From a virus: a stretch of DNA of 29,557 nucleotides. The translations under genes and the position numbers were made by a program. The stretch is taken from positions 1 through 29,557 of IMG/VR virus record IMGVR_UViG_3300009164_000253, one strand, 5' to 3'. The notes under the pieces are model-generated. The model was not told where the DNA came from. It saw only the letters and a list, made by a program, of their open reading frames with translations, and made no database searches. Numbering within the stretch: the stretch's first letter is position 1; each line of letters starts with the position of its first letter. This document shows positions 12,520-19,275 of this stretch, one piece after another.

Positions 12520-12705
12520 ATGAAACCAGAACGTAGCGCACCACTTCGTATTCAGTTTGATCAAGGCTACTATGCCTTCACTAGAGGATGGATTAATAAC
12601 CAATACCATCCTGACAGTGTGGCAGGTAAAGAATGGCAACGGGGTTTTAATCGTGGCTACTTTGATAATCTAACTAAGATGTCTGATGCAACGCAAAAGG
12701 TTTGA
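12520..12705 (+). CDS. Small RMF-like protein, 61 aa
   Basis: Starts after AAGGAAAAAGT, a strong SD. The core 'FDQGYYAFTRGWINNQYHP' followed by AGKEWQRGFNRGY has the spacing of ribosome-modulation-factor/CrpP-like small proteins: G..A...G....P, then a W..G(F/W) helix at residues 39-47. In bacteria RMF dimerises 70S ribosomes, but phage proteins with this pattern have no established role, so this is a resemblance only. The gene overlaps the next one by 20 nt. Confidence 0.6.
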   Translation: MKPERSAPLRIQFDQGYYAFTRGWINNQYHPDSVAGKEWQRGFNRGYFDNLTKMSDATQKV

Positions 12706-13120
12706 TAAAGAACTCCACGACATATACGACAAACTAGGAAGAGACACAGTTAAAAGCTTTGTCTCTTCTTTTTGGGATATGCAAGCTATAGACAATCCTA
12801 ATAGGTATGGTATTGACCTACACCTATACAAAGAAGATGTGTTGATTGGGTATGCAGAGGTTGAGGTTAGGCTTGCATGGAAGACTATTGAGTTTCCATA
12901 TGAAGACTTGAATGTACCTGAAAGAAAGCGAAAGCTTTTAGTGCAGAAACTGCCAACAACTTTCTTTTCAATCAATAAAGATGCAACAGCTTTGTTTCAT
13001 TGTGATGCAGCAGAGGTGTTAGCTTCTGAGGTGAAGGAATGCTACAATAAATATGTTGCCAAGGGAGAATACTTCTTCAAGATTCCCTTAGACAAACTCA
13101 CTCACGTTGTCTTAAACTAA
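12686..13120 (+). CDS. Hypothetical protein, possible PD-(D/E)xK-like nuclease fold, 144 aa
   Basis: The N-terminal helices (RFDKELHDIYDKLGRD) are followed by a strand block YGIDLHLYKED...GYAEVEVRLAW. Asp44, Glu58 and Glu60 are arranged like the GxD and ExE acidic residues of restriction-endonuclease-like folds. The usual Lys/Glu partner is represented only by ExE, so activity is uncertain. Later segments (FPYEDLNVPERKRKLL, TTFFSINKDATALF, YFFKIP) look like beta strands with a conserved-looking 'VP.RK' turn. No T7 gp3-like resolvase is visible in this window, which makes a junction or DNA-processing role attractive but unproven. Its last 23 nt overlap the opposite-strand gene. Confidence 0.6.
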   Translation: MQRKRFDKELHDIYDKLGRDTVKSFVSSFWDMQAIDNPNRYGIDLHLYKEDVLIGYAEVEVRLAWKTIEFPYEDLNVPERKRKLLVQKLPTTFFSINKDATALFHCDAAEVLASEVKECYNKYVAKGEYFFKIPLDKLTHVVLN

Positions 13121-13331
13121 CATAGGTTCCACAGAATGCACCAAGGCAAGCAGGTATCAGCAGCCAGTGATTGGTTGTATATTCTATGACAGCTACACTA
13201 GCAATCAAGAACACCATCACAGCCAGCACACTTGCTCTTAAAGCATTACGTTCATTCACTGACTTAATATAATGTGTGTACAAAATATCAGTGAAGAACA
13301 GGGCAAAGAAAGTTAATAACCAGTCGGTCAT
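13098..13331 (-). CDS. Small membrane protein, 77 aa
   Basis: The last gene of the leftward strand, starting one base before the stop codon of the amidotransferase-like gene and converging with the rightward 144-aa gene over 23 bp. Three hydrophobic helices are visible: residues 3-19 (DWLLTFFALFFTDILY), 33-50 (ASVLAVMVFLIASVAVI) and 56-71 (WLLIPACLGAFCGTYV). Similar short membrane proteins ('FFTD..(Y/W)..YI..V.E....AA......L..IEY......(L/I)PA.LGA..GTY') are found in phages and bacteria without a defined role. No terminator is seen between it and the opposing gene. Confidence 0.75.
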   Translation of the reverse strand: MTDWLLTFFALFFTDILYTHYIKSVNERNALRASVLAVMVFLIASVAVIEYTTNHWLLIPACLGAFCGTYVSLRQRE

Positions 13332-13988
13332 TTATTTATCATACATAAGTTTATTAACAAAATCTAACAGCAAGCTATGGTGTCTTCCACCATTCCAATG
13401 CTTGTTTATATACTTCCATTTACCCTCATACCAATACAATGGTGCTTCAGGGTGACAGCCTATTATACCAACCCTATCCTTGATGATAGCCATTGGGTCC
13501 CCATTAACATACCTTGCTACGGTTTTAAAGCTAGTCTCATCCCCTATCAAAGCACAGCCATCATAGAAGTATAGCTTCTCTGGTTGCCCTTCCCACATCA
13601 CCGAAGCCACTGTAGCGTAGCTTCTCTTCACCTCTGCGTTTGGTCTTTTAATATACTGGACAGCACGAACATCCCCAATCAAATCAAAGTACCACTGATC
13701 AGCCCAGTATGCACCCATGCATATGCCTAGATAATGTCCACCTTCTTCTATAAACTTAGCTATCCTGTTGCCTGTTCTTCTGCTAAACAATCTATACAGA
13801 AAACTACTATCTCCTATGCCACCGGGAAAGGCAATGATGTCTATGCCTATAAAGAAATCTTTGCTTTCAATATCGTCTTCGTTGAATGTTTGTATGTTGT
13901 AGCAAGGCGATAGTGCAGCAATCATTGCATTGGTGCAATCTTCTGAGCACTCAGGGTGATGTAGGAACAGAGCTATTGTTGGTTTCAT
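13332..13988 (-). CDS. Class-I glutamine-amidotransferase-like protein (BPL_N type)
   Basis: A 218-aa flavodoxin-like protein of the DJ-1/GATase-1 superfamily. The nucleophile elbow GGHYLGICMGAYWA puts Cys90 at the sharp turn, His179 and Glu181 (GCHPEA) complete a possible Cys-His-Glu triad, and the oxyanion-type loop is FPGGIGD (54-60). The overall pattern resembles the biotin-protein-ligase N-terminal (BPL_N) domain, without any ligase part. Free-standing phage versions exist, but I know of no proven substrate. Hydrolysis of an amide, or amide transfer during modification of a cell or virion component, is only inference. It starts 3 bp past a strong terminator with no visible SD, so its expression is unclear. 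The next gene follows directly. Confidence 0.8.
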   Translation of the reverse strand: MKPTIALFLHHPECSEDCTNAMIAALSPCYNIQTFNEDDIESKDFFIGIDIIAFPGGIGDSSFLYRLFSRRTGNRIAKFIEEGGHYLGICMGAYWADQWYFDLIGDVRAVQYIKRPNAEVKRSYATVASVMWEGQPEKLYFYDGCALIGDETSFKTVARYVNGDPMAIIKDRVGIIGCHPEAPLYWYEGKWKYINKHWNGGRHHSLLLDFVNKLMYDK

Positions 13989-13990
13989 AA

Positions 13991-14019
13991 AGTAAAAAAG
14001 CCAGCGTTGCTGCTGGCTT
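13991..14019 (-). terminator. Rho-independent terminator of the virion operon
   Basis: AAGCCAGC (13998-14005) and GCTGGCTT (14012-14019) form an 8-bp stem with a 6-nt loop. On the minus strand the stem is followed by a run of T residues (complement of the A-tract at 13994-13999). It lies 15 bp past the stop of the 1,746-aa gene and ends the late transcript. It touches the start region of the amidotransferase-like gene, which would be reached only by read-through. Confidence 0.8.
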
Positions 14020-14034
14020 CTTTGTTTTTGCTGC

Positions 14035-17000
14035 TTAGCGTTTAGATACTAAGCCACCGGAGTTAAACTTTTGTGTAAGCTTTCGTATATTATCCGTTGT
14101 TTTAACTGTAGTTTTATCAGTGCCAAACCTAATCTCATCAAGATTTTTGTTCAGTATAGTTAACATTTCTGCTTTCTGTTTAGCACCAGCCTTCTCTAAA
14201 GCAGTTGCAACATTTGAAATAAAATCACTAGTAATTAATACTTTTGTTTCAGGGTATGTACCAGTGACAATAGAATCAGCAAAGCCTTGTAAGAAGTTTT
14301 GATAGCGTTGTCCAATACCTGTCTTAGTTGATGTAGCAAGACCACGCTCTGCTGCTGTGTTCAAGAGAGAACGAATGCTGTCGTATGCTTTATAAGCAAC
14401 ACGTTTCTGCAACGCTGCCTCTTCAGGTCCTTGTGGAATAGATTTAAGTTGTGTACTTAATTCATACATCTGTGCTTTAAGTTCTTCTTCTTTTGTTACA
14501 CGCTTAGAAACACCAGCAAATCTTTCAGTAACTTCTTGTTCACCAGAATACAAAGGAACCTGCTTACCCGATGCCTTAGATGAAGGGATGAGCTTGTCTG
14601 CTTCTGTGAATATGTCTTCAGTTTCTTTAAAGGTTCTTGTCCGTGGTAAAGATACAGGACGTACCACATTGTCTGAACCGTTAAGTGATTGAGCTATGAC
14701 GTTCAAGTTCTTTCTATCGTATGCTTCAGGAGCCATGTTAATACGCTTGAATATATAGTCAGCATATGGCATCTCTGTATAGACAAACTTGTTTGGATCT
14801 TTACCACCAAAGCTACCAGTTTCGTAATTGAGGTTTATGTCCTTAGTGAATGACACACCACCAACATCTAGTTCCATATGGTAACGGCTGTGTTCCTGTG
14901 GGTTTTGAAAGCCTCTAGTCTTTAAGCCTTGAACATCACCAGTTGTTGTATCAGAACCATGAAAGAGTTTCACTGGTGGTTCATTTTTAAACTTCTCACG
15001 TAACACATTAAGTCTGTTCTGATATTCTTTTGACATCGATACAAACTCTGTTACATCTTTGGTATTCTTAGGATCAAACTCTCTACCTCTAACCACACGG
15101 AAATCACCCTGCACCACAGCAGCAACATCCTCAGCATCAGGTAATGCAGCAATGTCTTTATTAGACATAATCTTATCGAAGTTGAACATACGTTCTTCTC
15201 TTATAAGCTGCAATGTATTCTTACGCTCAGTAACACCCTTAGGTGTTTTAACATTTAAATCACCAGCCATTACCTGACTGTTCTTAACCTTTGGCTCCAT
15301 CAGCGATGTGCTTGCTGGACCTATAGGATTGCCAGCATCGTCATACTCAATTGGCGTTGGTTTGAAGGATGTAACCTGCTCAACATTTGTTGGCGTTGGC
15401 GCTATCTCACTAGCTTTTTTATTCAAACTATTAAGATAGTCAGTAGGATAGTCAGCCTTAAACTTATCTAGTTGGTACTGACTTCCCATGCTAGTCTTCA
15501 AAAGCTTCTCAGCTTCTTGCAATTGATAGGGTGTAAATTCTGTCTGTAATGTATCTGGTGTAGTCTTAAGCTCATCAAACAGGTTAAGCTCAGTAGACGG
15601 GGTAGGTGTAGGCTCAACAGGAATAGGCTCCTTGCTGACCGTTTTAGGGGTTTCTATGGGCATTGCTTGCTGAGCAGGACGTGCCACAGGAGCAACAGGT
15701 AAAGCTCTTGTTGTTTGTTCTGCAACAGGTAATACTTCTTTCTTAACAACAGCTTGCTGCATTTCTTGTAACAGTTCTGTTGCTCCTTTAGTTACCCCTT
15801 TACCCAATGTTTTACCAACAATGTCAGAGATTAAACCACCAGCAGCAAAGCCGGGAAGCTCACGTATGGCAGCAGCATAAGCTAATGCTTCCACGTATGC
15901 CTTAGTTGAAGCAAGGTCTTGACCTGTTTGTTGCTTGTACATCTCTGCTGTAGCTCTCTTCACCTCAGGTGGTAAAGCAGAATACTTCACCTCAAAGATA
16001 CGAGCTTGTTCACCCTTAGCAAACGCATCAGCCTGTGATGTATCAACAGCAATTTCTTTAGCATTTTTCTGTGCAAATGCTAATGTGTTTTGCAGAGCAA
16101 TCTTCTTCATATCTGGAGAAGAACCCTTGTACCAATCGGTATTGGAGACAGCCTCATATGCTTGCAGCAATAGAGGAGCCATCACCTTACGTGCTGATGC
16201 ATCAACAATCTTGTCACCAGTGGAGGTGAATACTTTGTTTGATGGGATATGAAGCTGAACAATTTCATTCTCAAGCGGTGTTGGATTACCCTTGATAGTG
16301 ATACCAGTAAACATCTTCAATGGACCAGCATCGTTGTATACAGCTTCTTCTTTAACAGCAGGTTGATAGACAGGAAGTTCTTGTTTAAGAACAGGAGTAC
16401 GCTTCATCAATTGCTGTTTAGCCGATGAAGCAAAACCTTCTTCACCCGGTGCAATTTGATAGGCATCACGTGGTAGTGTTTCGTCACGGTCAATAGCACC
16501 AATGATGTCACTAAGTTGTTGAACAGGAACTAAGGCACGACCAAAGTATTCACCAACCCATTCACCAAAGAATGTTGCAACCTTTTGCTCAGCCATTCCT
16601 TCACCAGTTTGCATACCAGATGATGCTTCAGCAAACTTATCACCCAGCCATGCTGTTGTACCAGCAGGAGCTTTAAAACCAATCAATGCTTCTACAAGTT
16701 CTTTAGCCTTGAACTCATCAGTGCGACCCTTCTGATACTTAACCAAGTAATCACCAATAGCTAGGAATGGAGCCATAGGAAACAATGCCCTAGCATCTAC
16801 CAAGCTACCATCAGGATTCTTAACGTCATACCAGTTGGTGTCTTGATTCTCTTGTCTGTATTTGAAAGCCGCATAAATTGCTGCTGTACCAACAGTTCCT
16901 TTAGATATATTCTCAAGACCCTGCACCATCTGACCAACGCCAGCATCTGCAGTTTCTTTATTCATTTGTTTAGCTGCACCAACAGCAACATCTGTAGCAC

Positions 17001-19275
17001 CAGAGAAGATACCCATTGGGCTGTGCTTGTATGTCCATGACATAGCATTAGCCATGAAACGAGGGAATGGTATTAGTGTAGAACCTACAGGACCAAGCTC
17101 TTCAACAAGCTTAACAGCATGGAACATTGGACCTTTGGTAGGCATCTTGCTGAATGTAGCAGTGAGTGCTTCATCTGTTGCGTTCTTTAGCACATCAAAC
17201 GGAACATTCTTTCCTTGTGCCATTACATCATACATGTTGATACCAACACGGCTTAGTTGTTTCTCAACAGACGCAGTGAAGATTGCTTTACGGAAGAATG
17301 CATCCTGTGCTACGTTTAATGTATTAGCTATACGTGCAGGAGCAGACAACGCTTTATCACCAGCATCACCTGCTGTCTTCAATATCATGTTCTGTAGTGT
17401 TGGTGAACCAGACAATAGTTTCTCAGCAACATCAGAAGATAGTTGTGATTGACCTAAGTAGAATGTTGTACGAACAGCATCATCGTAAACACCTTTAATA
17501 CCATTGGTAAAGCTACCAGTGACAGGCTTACCTGTTGTAAGTTCTGATGCTGTCTTACCCATACGGTATAGAGCAGACTCAATTGCTTCTGATGCAGCAC
17601 CAAAGGTAACTACAGCAGCACCAGAGAATCCGTTGCGGATGGTTGTTGCAACCTGTGACACCATGAGTGCTTTCAACTCACGATCTAAACGCATACCGAA
17701 ATCTCTCAACCCAGTGAATGCAGAAGTGATGGCACTACGATTACCATACATTGCATCAACTTCTTTAGCAGCAGCAGGATCAATGCTCTTTAGTTTGTTT
17801 TGGATACGAGCTAATACAGAATAGGCTTGTAGAGTACGACCAGCATCACCAGCAGTGGTGCGGTTCATACGTGCAAACTCTTCAGCAGTGATGCCAGCTT
17901 TACTTAAGCTGTCTTGTAATACGATGTCATCAATCTGATCGATGTTCATGAACACATTTTTAACAGCATCACTAATCTTTTGATTTGCTTGTGGTGCTAG
18001 CTCAGGAACACGTGACCAAACTTCTTTAGCAACCTGTGCTGCCTTCTGATTGACATCGTTTCTAATTTGCATCTCAGCAACAGATGTTGGATCGCCTTGA
18101 TCATTGAGAAGCTTACGACCTTCAAAGATATCGTATTGATCTTCCAAAGCTTTTTGTGTTGGATCAGCAGGTTTAACATTCACCGTTGGTGCAGGTGCTG
18201 CCCCTGTAGCAGACGTTGGTTTACGTGCAGCAAGGATGTCTTCAAGCTGTGTTGAAGCACCACTCTTTGATATCTTCTTAGCAGCACCAACCAATGTGGC
18301 AGTTTCAAGAGCACCTGTAATAGCACCAATACCACCAGCAATGGCTGCTCTCTTACCGCTTACACCTTCAGCAAGCTTGGCTTCTAGCTGATCTACCTGT
18401 GGTTTAAACTGAGCTTGTTGTGATGGTGTAAGTTGTGGTAACAACTCTTTCATTTGTTCAAGCTGTGCTTTGCCTGTAGTTAGTTCTATCTTCTGGGATG
18501 TGATGTCAGAGATTGCAGCACCACCGCCTTCAACAGCAGGTACTGCAGCAAGAGTCCCAAGACGGGACTTAATAGCAGCTTGTAGACCCTTCTCTGTAGC
18601 TGTCTTCATGAATGTAGATGTGGCAATCTTACCTGCACCTAAAGAGATGGCAGTGGTAGGATCGCTAATGATAGCGCCAAGCGTATCTAGTACAGGCTTA
18701 GCACCACCTTGTCCACCCTTCTCAAAGTAGCCAGCAGTTTGATCAAACAAGTCATATGCTTGTTGAGCTTTTAATAACTCATCACGTTTAGCATTGTTTA
18801 GATATTGAAGCTCTTGTGTACCAGATATTAAGTTCATGCTAGTCATACGCATATGGCTAGCCCAACGCTTAACATAGTCTTCTGAAGACTCACCTTCTTT
18901 TGGCACACCTTCTTTACCAAAACGAGCTTGAGCATAAGCTTGGATTGTCTGAAGCTTCTTAGGGTCTGTATAGAGTTCTGTGAATGGAGCTTGTTTAGCT
19001 TCTTCAGCTTTTATTTCAGCGGCTCTAGCCTCTAATACTTTAGCTGGTTTAGTCTTAAAAACAATTGCTGCCTTTTCTTCGGCAGGTGTAATGGCAGGTG
19101 GTTCTGTAGGAACAGCAGCAGGTGTTGTAGGAGCAACAGGAACCTGTGCTGTCTGTACTGGTGCTTGATCTTTCTTTGCTGGAAGCTGTTTTAATGCTGC
19201 AGCCATGTCATCTTTTGACATGCCATCAGGAAAAGTTACAGGTCCATAACCAATAACATCAACTGTTTGTGCCAT
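14035..19275 (-). CDS. Giant internal virion protein, 1,746 aa
   Basis: A very long, Ala/Lys/Gln-rich protein at the end of the virion operon, probably carried in the capsid and ejected with the DNA, like the large core proteins of podoviruses. Seen by region: an N-terminal 'VIGYGPVTFPDGMSKDD' element typical of large phage virion proteins; coiled-coil and Gly/Ala-rich helical parts (190-330); helical domains including LKALMVSQVATTIRNGFSGA; a FAAGGL motif at 1143-1148; a Pro-rich linker near 1180-1230. An ADP-ribosyltransferase-like patch with KLFHGSD (His1439), GGVSFTKD (1472-1479) and Glu1501 follows, then a C-terminal FNSGGLVSKR. No lysozyme or transglycosylase motif was recognised. The ATG at 19275 follows a weak GGGAA. 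The enzyme-like patch is only a resemblance. Confidence 0.8.
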   Translation of the reverse strand: MAQTVDVIGYGPVTFPDGMSKDDMAAALKQLPAKKDQAPVQTAQVPVAPTTPAAVPTEPPAITPAEEKAAIVFKTKPAKVLEARAAEIKAEEAKQAPFTELYTDPKKLQTIQAYAQARFGKEGVPKEGESSEDYVKRWASHMRMTSMNLISGTQELQYLNNAKRDELLKAQQAYDLFDQTAGYFEKGGQGGAKPVLDTLGAIISDPTTAISLGAGKIATSTFMKTATEKGLQAAIKSRLGTLAAVPAVEGGGAAISDITSQKIELTTGKAQLEQMKELLPQLTPSQQAQFKPQVDQLEAKLAEGVSGKRAAIAGGIGAITGALETATLVGAAKKISKSGASTQLEDILAARKPTSATGAAPAPTVNVKPADPTQKALEDQYDIFEGRKLLNDQGDPTSVAEMQIRNDVNQKAAQVAKEVWSRVPELAPQANQKISDAVKNVFMNIDQIDDIVLQDSLSKAGITAEEFARMNRTTAGDAGRTLQAYSVLARIQNKLKSIDPAAAKEVDAMYGNRSAITSAFTGLRDFGMRLDRELKALMVSQVATTIRNGFSGAAVVTFGAASEAIESALYRMGKTASELTTGKPVTGSFTNGIKGVYDDAVRTTFYLGQSQLSSDVAEKLLSGSPTLQNMILKTAGDAGDKALSAPARIANTLNVAQDAFFRKAIFTASVEKQLSRVGINMYDVMAQGKNVPFDVLKNATDEALTATFSKMPTKGPMFHAVKLVEELGPVGSTLIPFPRFMANAMSWTYKHSPMGIFSGATDVAVGAAKQMNKETADAGVGQMVQGLENISKGTVGTAAIYAAFKYRQENQDTNWYDVKNPDGSLVDARALFPMAPFLAIGDYLVKYQKGRTDEFKAKELVEALIGFKAPAGTTAWLGDKFAEASSGMQTGEGMAEQKVATFFGEWVGEYFGRALVPVQQLSDIIGAIDRDETLPRDAYQIAPGEEGFASSAKQQLMKRTPVLKQELPVYQPAVKEEAVYNDAGPLKMFTGITIKGNPTPLENEIVQLHIPSNKVFTSTGDKIVDASARKVMAPLLLQAYEAVSNTDWYKGSSPDMKKIALQNTLAFAQKNAKEIAVDTSQADAFAKGEQARIFEVKYSALPPEVKRATAEMYKQQTGQDLASTKAYVEALAYAAAIRELPGFAAGGLISDIVGKTLGKGVTKGATELLQEMQQAVVKKEVLPVAEQTTRALPVAPVARPAQQAMPIETPKTVSKEPIPVEPTPTPSTELNLFDELKTTPDTLQTEFTPYQLQEAEKLLKTSMGSQYQLDKFKADYPTDYLNSLNKKASEIAPTPTNVEQVTSFKPTPIEYDDAGNPIGPASTSLMEPKVKNSQVMAGDLNVKTPKGVTERKNTLQLIREERMFNFDKIMSNKDIAALPDAEDVAAVVQGDFRVVRGREFDPKNTKDVTEFVSMSKEYQNRLNVLREKFKNEPPVKLFHGSDTTTGDVQGLKTRGFQNPQEHSRYHMELDVGGVSFTKDINLNYETGSFGGKDPNKFVYTEMPYADYIFKRINMAPEAYDRKNLNVIAQSLNGSDNVVRPVSLPRTRTFKETEDIFTEADKLIPSSKASGKQVPLYSGEQEVTERFAGVSKRVTKEEELKAQMYELSTQLKSIPQGPEEAALQKRVAYKAYDSIRSLLNTAAERGLATSTKTGIGQRYQNFLQGFADSIVTGTYPETKVLITSDFISNVATALEKAGAKQKAEMLTILNKNLDEIRFGTDKTTVKTTDNIRKLTQKFNSGGLVSKR

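Follow-up and report, generated by a model that had tools for sequence, protein, structure and literature searches.

Why would a phage close its virion arm with an amidotransferase-like enzyme and a small membrane protein? The question arises from a 29.6 kb record of a freshwater phage (the window, the whole stretch of 29,557 nucleotides analysed here), and it extends beyond this phage: BPL_N domains carry an intact catalytic triad without a known reaction, even in yeast biotin ligase, and a compact, highly conserved phage BPL_N protein with a recurrent membrane partner offers a tractable route to that reaction. The features of the window that bear on the question are as follows.

13332..13988, minus strand: BPL_N-family protein, 218 aa, stand-alone, with a class I glutamine-amidotransferase fold
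13719..13721, minus strand: codon of the nucleophile Cys90 (GICMGAYW motif), Cys in 85 of 85 aligned relatives
13452..13454, minus strand: codon of His179, His in 84 of 84 complete relatives
13446..13448, minus strand: codon of Glu181, Glu in 84 of 84 complete relatives
13098..13331, minus strand: 77-aa membrane protein predicted to have three helices, start codon directly after the BPL_N stop
13994..14023, minus strand: hairpin resembling an intrinsic terminator, located between BPL_N and the 1746-aa gene, judged by its stability against shuffles
14035..19275, minus strand: 1746-aa protein, upstream neighbour of BPL_N in the virion arm, synteny anchor
12686..13120, plus strand: 144-aa ORF that ends the early arm and converges with the pair, second synteny anchor

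A mobile two-gene module behind the late-arm terminator

The plus arm of the window encodes an integrase, primase/helicase, DNA polymerase, exonuclease and ribonucleotide reductase (RNR); the minus arm, whose upstream end shows matches to tail fibres, is closed by BPL_N and the membrane protein gene. These two genes abut without a gap (TAA-ATG), and the structure prediction for the smaller product consists of three helices (pLDDT 93). Upstream of BPL_N, the minus-strand hairpin (14023-13994; -17.4 kcal/mol, z -4.0 against shuffles) is followed by a U-tract that ends about 6 nt before the start codon, and its plus strand also scores as a terminator, making it usable in both directions. At the other end, the 3' ends of the membrane protein ORF and the plus-strand ORF overlap by 23 nt, so that the minus and plus arms converge. 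The architecture described in the earlier note, with a three-helix membrane protein directly after BPL_N and the pair lying beyond a late-operon terminator and converging with the early arm, is borne out at each of these junctions.

Two related phages (L238 and L239) have no such pair between the same two flanking genes, with 51% and 68% identity, respectively, in the 1746-aa neighbour, and L239 retains a similar hairpin despite the missing pair; in this lineage the pair thus counts as accessory, although the nearest relative, L001, has it. About 470 nt of L239 at this site (L239:4880-5400), without the pair, hold a repeated inverted-repeat-like unit (CCAACACGGCTGAG ... CATGCGTGTTAGTTGTTGG). 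Positions 287-1408 of the window encode the integrase (phrog_1, E 1.3e-35); the window phage may be temperate, and the two genes could then be among those expressed in lysogens.

Together, BPL_N and its membrane partner make up a phage module of two genes that is mobile and, in the window phage, inserted behind the late-arm terminator; the accessory cassette proposed in the earlier note holds in this form. Many uncultured phages that are not related to one another carry it as well. With the membrane protein as sole query, 59 loci were obtained, some of them near-copies of each other; BPL_N is present in 25, and in 22 it adjoins the membrane protein gene on the same strand within about 135 nt, with short overlaps or gaps; BPL_N comes first in 12 of these and the membrane protein in 10. 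Of 18 large records chosen because they encode the membrane protein, 13 contain BPL_N, and the two genes lie at most 1.1 kb apart in 6 of the 16 records that hold both (0.35 expected), pairing counts that are inflated by kinship between phages. The two opposite orders cannot both have been inherited unchanged from a single arrangement. In other phages the pair sits beside replication or nucleotide genes.

The membrane protein is 43-73% identical among different phages and has an invariant Asp15 in helix 1 and a GAFxGT motif across relatives; a fold search with its model returned no similar solved structure. An identity as UbiA was dropped, the match being weak and below cutoff for a 77-aa hydrophobic protein. 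One bacterial genome (G147) carries two distant copies of the membrane protein gene (L245:1477-1758 and L246:1462-1740), neither with a BPL_N neighbour.

BPL_N relatives are encoded in at least 587 viral stretches, and no homologue of either protein was found among 50,697 records of named phages. In the tree the window copy is nested, with support, among 19 other viral copies, and its nearest relatives lie on contigs with large-phage replication and nucleotide genes, which we read as T4-like by gene content rather than by formal classification; the closest relatives of the pair are in large-genome freshwater phages. Bacterial copies (42-51% identity) come mainly from freshwater Burkholderiales, with some from Rhizobiales metagenome-assembled genomes, and are solitary chromosomal genes whose neighbourhoods show neither a consistent partner nor consistent lipid neighbours. 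A close copy occurs in only 1 of 300 Burkholderiales genomes, and in the tree the copies from this order form one supported, long-branched clade.

Putative lipid-operon neighbours of the homologues

In many of these phages BPL_N lies in or beside an operon that consists of a gene for a PlcP-like metallophosphoesterase and, after it, one for a glycosyltransferase, either GT4 (Agt-like) or GT2. At 78 distinct viral loci, the commonest families found no more than 5 kb from BPL_N are metallophosphoesterase (23 loci), the membrane protein (21), RNR subunits (14 and 13), GT4 (13) and GT2 (12); a GIY-YIG nuclease (12) is also near. The phosphoesterase gene, hereafter plcP, occurs together with BPL_N in 20 records, and in 13 of these the two are at most 5 kb apart (expected 2.1, p <= 5e-5). 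In at least 10 loci the BPL_N gene comes after that of the glycosyltransferase, GT2 or GT4, and overlaps or touches it; elsewhere BPL_N is upstream, between plcP and GT4, or divergent, giving at least six gene orders overall. When loci were instead selected by the partners, BPL_N was inside the fetched stretch in 17 of 67 plcP-selected and 21 of 58 GT2-selected loci; most plcP loci have no BPL_N nearby, but many of these contigs are incomplete. The earlier note had named homologues consistently linked to an unrelated known pathway as grounds against its inference; such a link exists in part, to lipid remodelling, being recurrent but not universal.

The plcP-glycosyltransferase operon is itself very common in freshwater viral contigs, with at least 588 stretches (e.g. 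L272-L350, L351-L423). Of the 67 distinct phage loci selected by plcP, 65 have a GT2 or GT4 gene, in nearly every case immediately downstream of plcP, and no locus among them has both. Only one of 39 large records has both, in two cassettes: this 525 kb viral record (L054/L296 contig, G312) carries two separate BPL_N/plcP/glycosyltransferase sets, with GT4 in one and GT2 in the other. Bacterial homologues of the phage phosphoesterase occur in 58 of 120 Burkholderiales genomes, and a GT4 homologue follows the bacterial plcP homologue in 15 of 25 loci. An identity as LpxH was rejected because the curated NCBIfam cutoffs are far from reached (46.6 against 134 and 35 against 190 bits) and because the bacterial homologues show plcP-agt synteny.

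In the bacterial plcP-agt operon, PlcP cleaves diacylglycerol off phospholipid, and glycolipid synthesis falls to Agt (PMC4796936, PMC9804370), the glycolipids being MGDG and GADG (PMC9804370). The neighbours of phage BPL_N resemble that operon (PMC4796936) in having a PlcP-like gene and GT4 in the same order, many with Pho-box-like elements; they differ from it in being phage-borne, in often having GT2 in place of GT4, in being repeatedly extended by BPL_N, alone or together with the membrane protein, and in being absent from the window phage, where no ORF matches PlcP, GT4 or GT2. Phage PlcP and Agt are assigned by homology and synteny, which makes the phospholipase C and diacylglycerol glycosyltransferase activities putative. 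The GT2 beside BPL_N weakly matches a PHROG of GtrB-like O-antigen conversion proteins (2.2e-08) and so recalls phage O-antigen modification genes; unlike those, it follows a PlcP-like phosphoesterase, with no gtrA or gtrC seen, and it probably acts on lipid rather than on O-antigen. In a literature search that covered mainly open-access papers, we found no prior report of phage plcP, of phage glycolipid operons or remodelling, or of a function for stand-alone BPL_N. The pathway is known in bacteria; the phage plcP-glycosyltransferase lipid operon looks like a new member of the auxiliary genes with unrecognised extra parts, and membrane-lipid remodelling would, if this is true, be a common phage-driven process in fresh water.

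A Pho-box-like repeat (TGTMAY-N5-TGTMAY) is found upstream of 27 of 111 phage plcP genes versus 16 of 734 control genes, mostly 38-52 nt upstream, and many phage plcP operons do without it; nearly all control-gene matches in the wider set belong to phage pstS, a positive control, and to one uncharacterised family. Among operon leaders, the element is present in 24 of 50 for plcP, 1 of 42 for the membrane protein and none of 39 for BPL_N, and a BPL_N gene beside plcP does not alter its frequency at plcP (9 of 35 versus 17 of 78). A role of BPL_N as a phosphate-starvation gene is therefore not supported; the contrast between its leaders and those of plcP suggests that it was recruited to the lipid operon. 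The half-sites at phage plcP (L281, L283, L291) and pstS (L008, L117, L278) are usually TGTAAY, not the classical TGTCAT. A phage family starting MR(F/L)EDLA(A/V)RLVAVEAKLA also has the repeat (L289:9700, L292:9984, L317:9694, L320:9800, L323:4880) and, judging by this motif, may belong to the phage phosphate response.

With these neighbourhoods in view we tentatively favour, while holding it at somewhat less than an even chance, the reading that BPL_N and its membrane partner accessorise phage modification of host envelope lipids, acting as a Cys-triad hydrolase or transferase. Envelope modification was among the roles suggested in the earlier note; the clustering of homologues with the plcP-glycosyltransferase operon makes it the favoured one, and it stands as a candidate role. 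The most serious competitor, which we consider possible if rather unlikely, is that the pair is a genuine unit that has nothing more in common with the plcP-glycosyltransferase operon than its insertion hotspots and serves another process, for example as a metabolite or host-takeover enzyme. Phage hotspots can gather unrelated accessory genes, which counts against the lipid reading, as do the near absence of Pho-box-like elements from BPL_N and membrane protein leaders when phage plcP and pstS have them, the presence of RNR and GIY-YIG nuclease genes near BPL_N, the lack of plcP and glycosyltransferase genes in the window phage, the solitary state of the bacterial homologues, and the absence of BPL_N from the vicinity of most plcP loci. 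Distance argues the other way, in that BPL_N lies within 150 nt of GT2 (8 of 12), GT4 (6 of 13) and the membrane protein (19 of 22) more often than of the other hotspot genes (RNR large subunit 4 of 14, RNR small subunit 3 of 13, GIY-YIG 4 of 12), and the partners stay constant across many gene orders.

The enzyme and its candidate roles

The 218-aa protein matches the Pfam BPL_N family (PF09825) above its curated cutoff (1.8e-13, 50.5 bits, cutoff 24.2), with good alignment to the profile limited to residues 13-97. Its AlphaFold model is confident (pLDDT 95) and has a class I amidotransferase (GATase) fold: the nearest solved folds found by Foldseek are PdxT/YaaE, HisH and the gamma-glutamyl peptidase GGP1 (2nv0: E 1.4e-10, TM 0.66/0.74). 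Sequence identity to such class I GATases is about 15%. The DJ-1-type label in the earlier note did not survive, since DJ-1/PfpI is absent both from the Pfam matches and from the 50 best PDB fold matches. Among viral models, Foldseek matched generic amidotransferase-domain proteins only, and searches of PHROGs, NCBIfam, PADLOC and PDB sequences gave no functional match.

The Cys90-His179-Glu181 triad reported earlier is encoded in full, in the linear order Cys...His-x-Glu shared with class I GATases, and it is as constant among relatives as the counts above indicate. Without exception in the alignment with 84 relatives are Cys90, Gly56-57, Tyr94, Trp95, Gln111, Trp132, Asp143-Gly144, Tyr160 and Asn162, and comparison with the nearest phage, L001, gives a dN/dS of about 0.05. 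An intact, invariant triad under such strong purifying selection argues for catalysis.

Under the favoured lipid reading, the PlcP-glycosyltransferase operon would turn host phospholipid into diacylglycerol and then glycolipid during infection, and BPL_N, a hydrolase or transferase working by way of an acyl-enzyme on its Cys-His-Glu triad, would take as substrate either a product of this envelope-lipid chemistry or one of its precursors, probably an amide, ester or gamma-glutamyl-type compound other than glutamine. The three-helix protein, if the two products pair physically, would recruit or activate BPL_N at the inner membrane. In the window phage the pair would act alone, using lipids of the host or glycolipids that the host makes. 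What the phage gains would probably be altered envelope properties (for example in superinfection, adsorption or the timing of lysis) rather than a saving of phosphate in itself, a preference suggested mainly by BPL_N leaders without the Pho-box-like element. A bolder form of the proposal, to which we give about one chance in four, is that phages carry a full membrane lipid-remodelling system, with PlcP and an Agt-like or GT2 enzyme under a Pho-box-like element, and that BPL_N and its partner jointly add a new step of glycolipid or precursor modification, the window phage having that step alone.

An improbable alternative is that the protein gives the phage control over the acetyl-CoA carboxylase of its host and, through it, over the supply of fatty acids. 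It draws on membership of the same Pfam family as the BPL_N domain of biotin ligase, and it is compatible with the lipid neighbourhood. The yeast domain keeps a Cys-His-Glu triad (C89, H215, E217) yet shows no glutaminase activity, and in eukaryotes the N-terminal extensions make contact with the substrate to be biotinylated (PMC12582158). The phage protein shares with yeast biotin protein ligase the above-cutoff family match and the GATase fold; it differs in standing alone, with a membrane-protein partner that regulation of the carboxylase leaves unexplained, and without a ligase domain, none being found by Pfam in the protein or recognised among recurrent neighbours of homologues. The similarity to the BPL_N profile spans only part of the protein, and every copy, phage or bacterial, keeps the whole triad and the residues around it unchanged, which suggests catalysis.

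Class I GATases have the active-site signature G-x-C-x-G-x-[QEH], in which the Q, E or H fourth after the Cys contacts glutamine. Class I amidotransferases such as PdxT/YaaE and HisH are the closest in fold, and with the linear triad this could make the protein a glutaminase or amidotransferase subunit that gives ammonia to a synthase, an everyday metabolic helper in nitrogen or cofactor pathways; we regard this as very improbable. The signature is broken by Tyr94, with Tyr at this position in all 85 sequences; the Pfam GATase match (PF00117) is below cutoff (16.6 against 22.8 bits); no synthase partner is linked; and the yeast BPL_N domain made no glutamate from glutamine (PMC12582158). Glutaminase activity of the phage protein is thus unlikely, as far as the residue at the glutamine-contact position and the negative yeast domain can tell.

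Equally slight is the chance that the pair counters a host defence, with an enzyme that degrades a defence signal or metabolite and a membrane partner, as the earlier note had also suggested. An accessory, mobile pair at a variable site in many phages would suit such a role, yet the protein matched no PADLOC model at E <= 1, no defence or anti-defence genes were recognised in the recurrent neighbour clusters examined, and the bacterial homologues are solitary and chromosomal, so this suggestion found no backing. Least probable is a lysis pair at the end of the late arm, with a holin-like pore former and BPL_N as its helper: a small three-helix protein does close the virion arm, but related phages manage without the pair, which in other phages sits beside replication or nucleotide genes, and holins evolve fast, unlike this membrane protein with its conservation across phages and invariant helix-1 Asp.

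No signal peptide is apparent in the window BPL_N protein. Distant bacterial BPL_N proteins (L241, L242) have apparent signal peptides and a His-Leu-Glu motif, and an exported branch of the family therefore exists.
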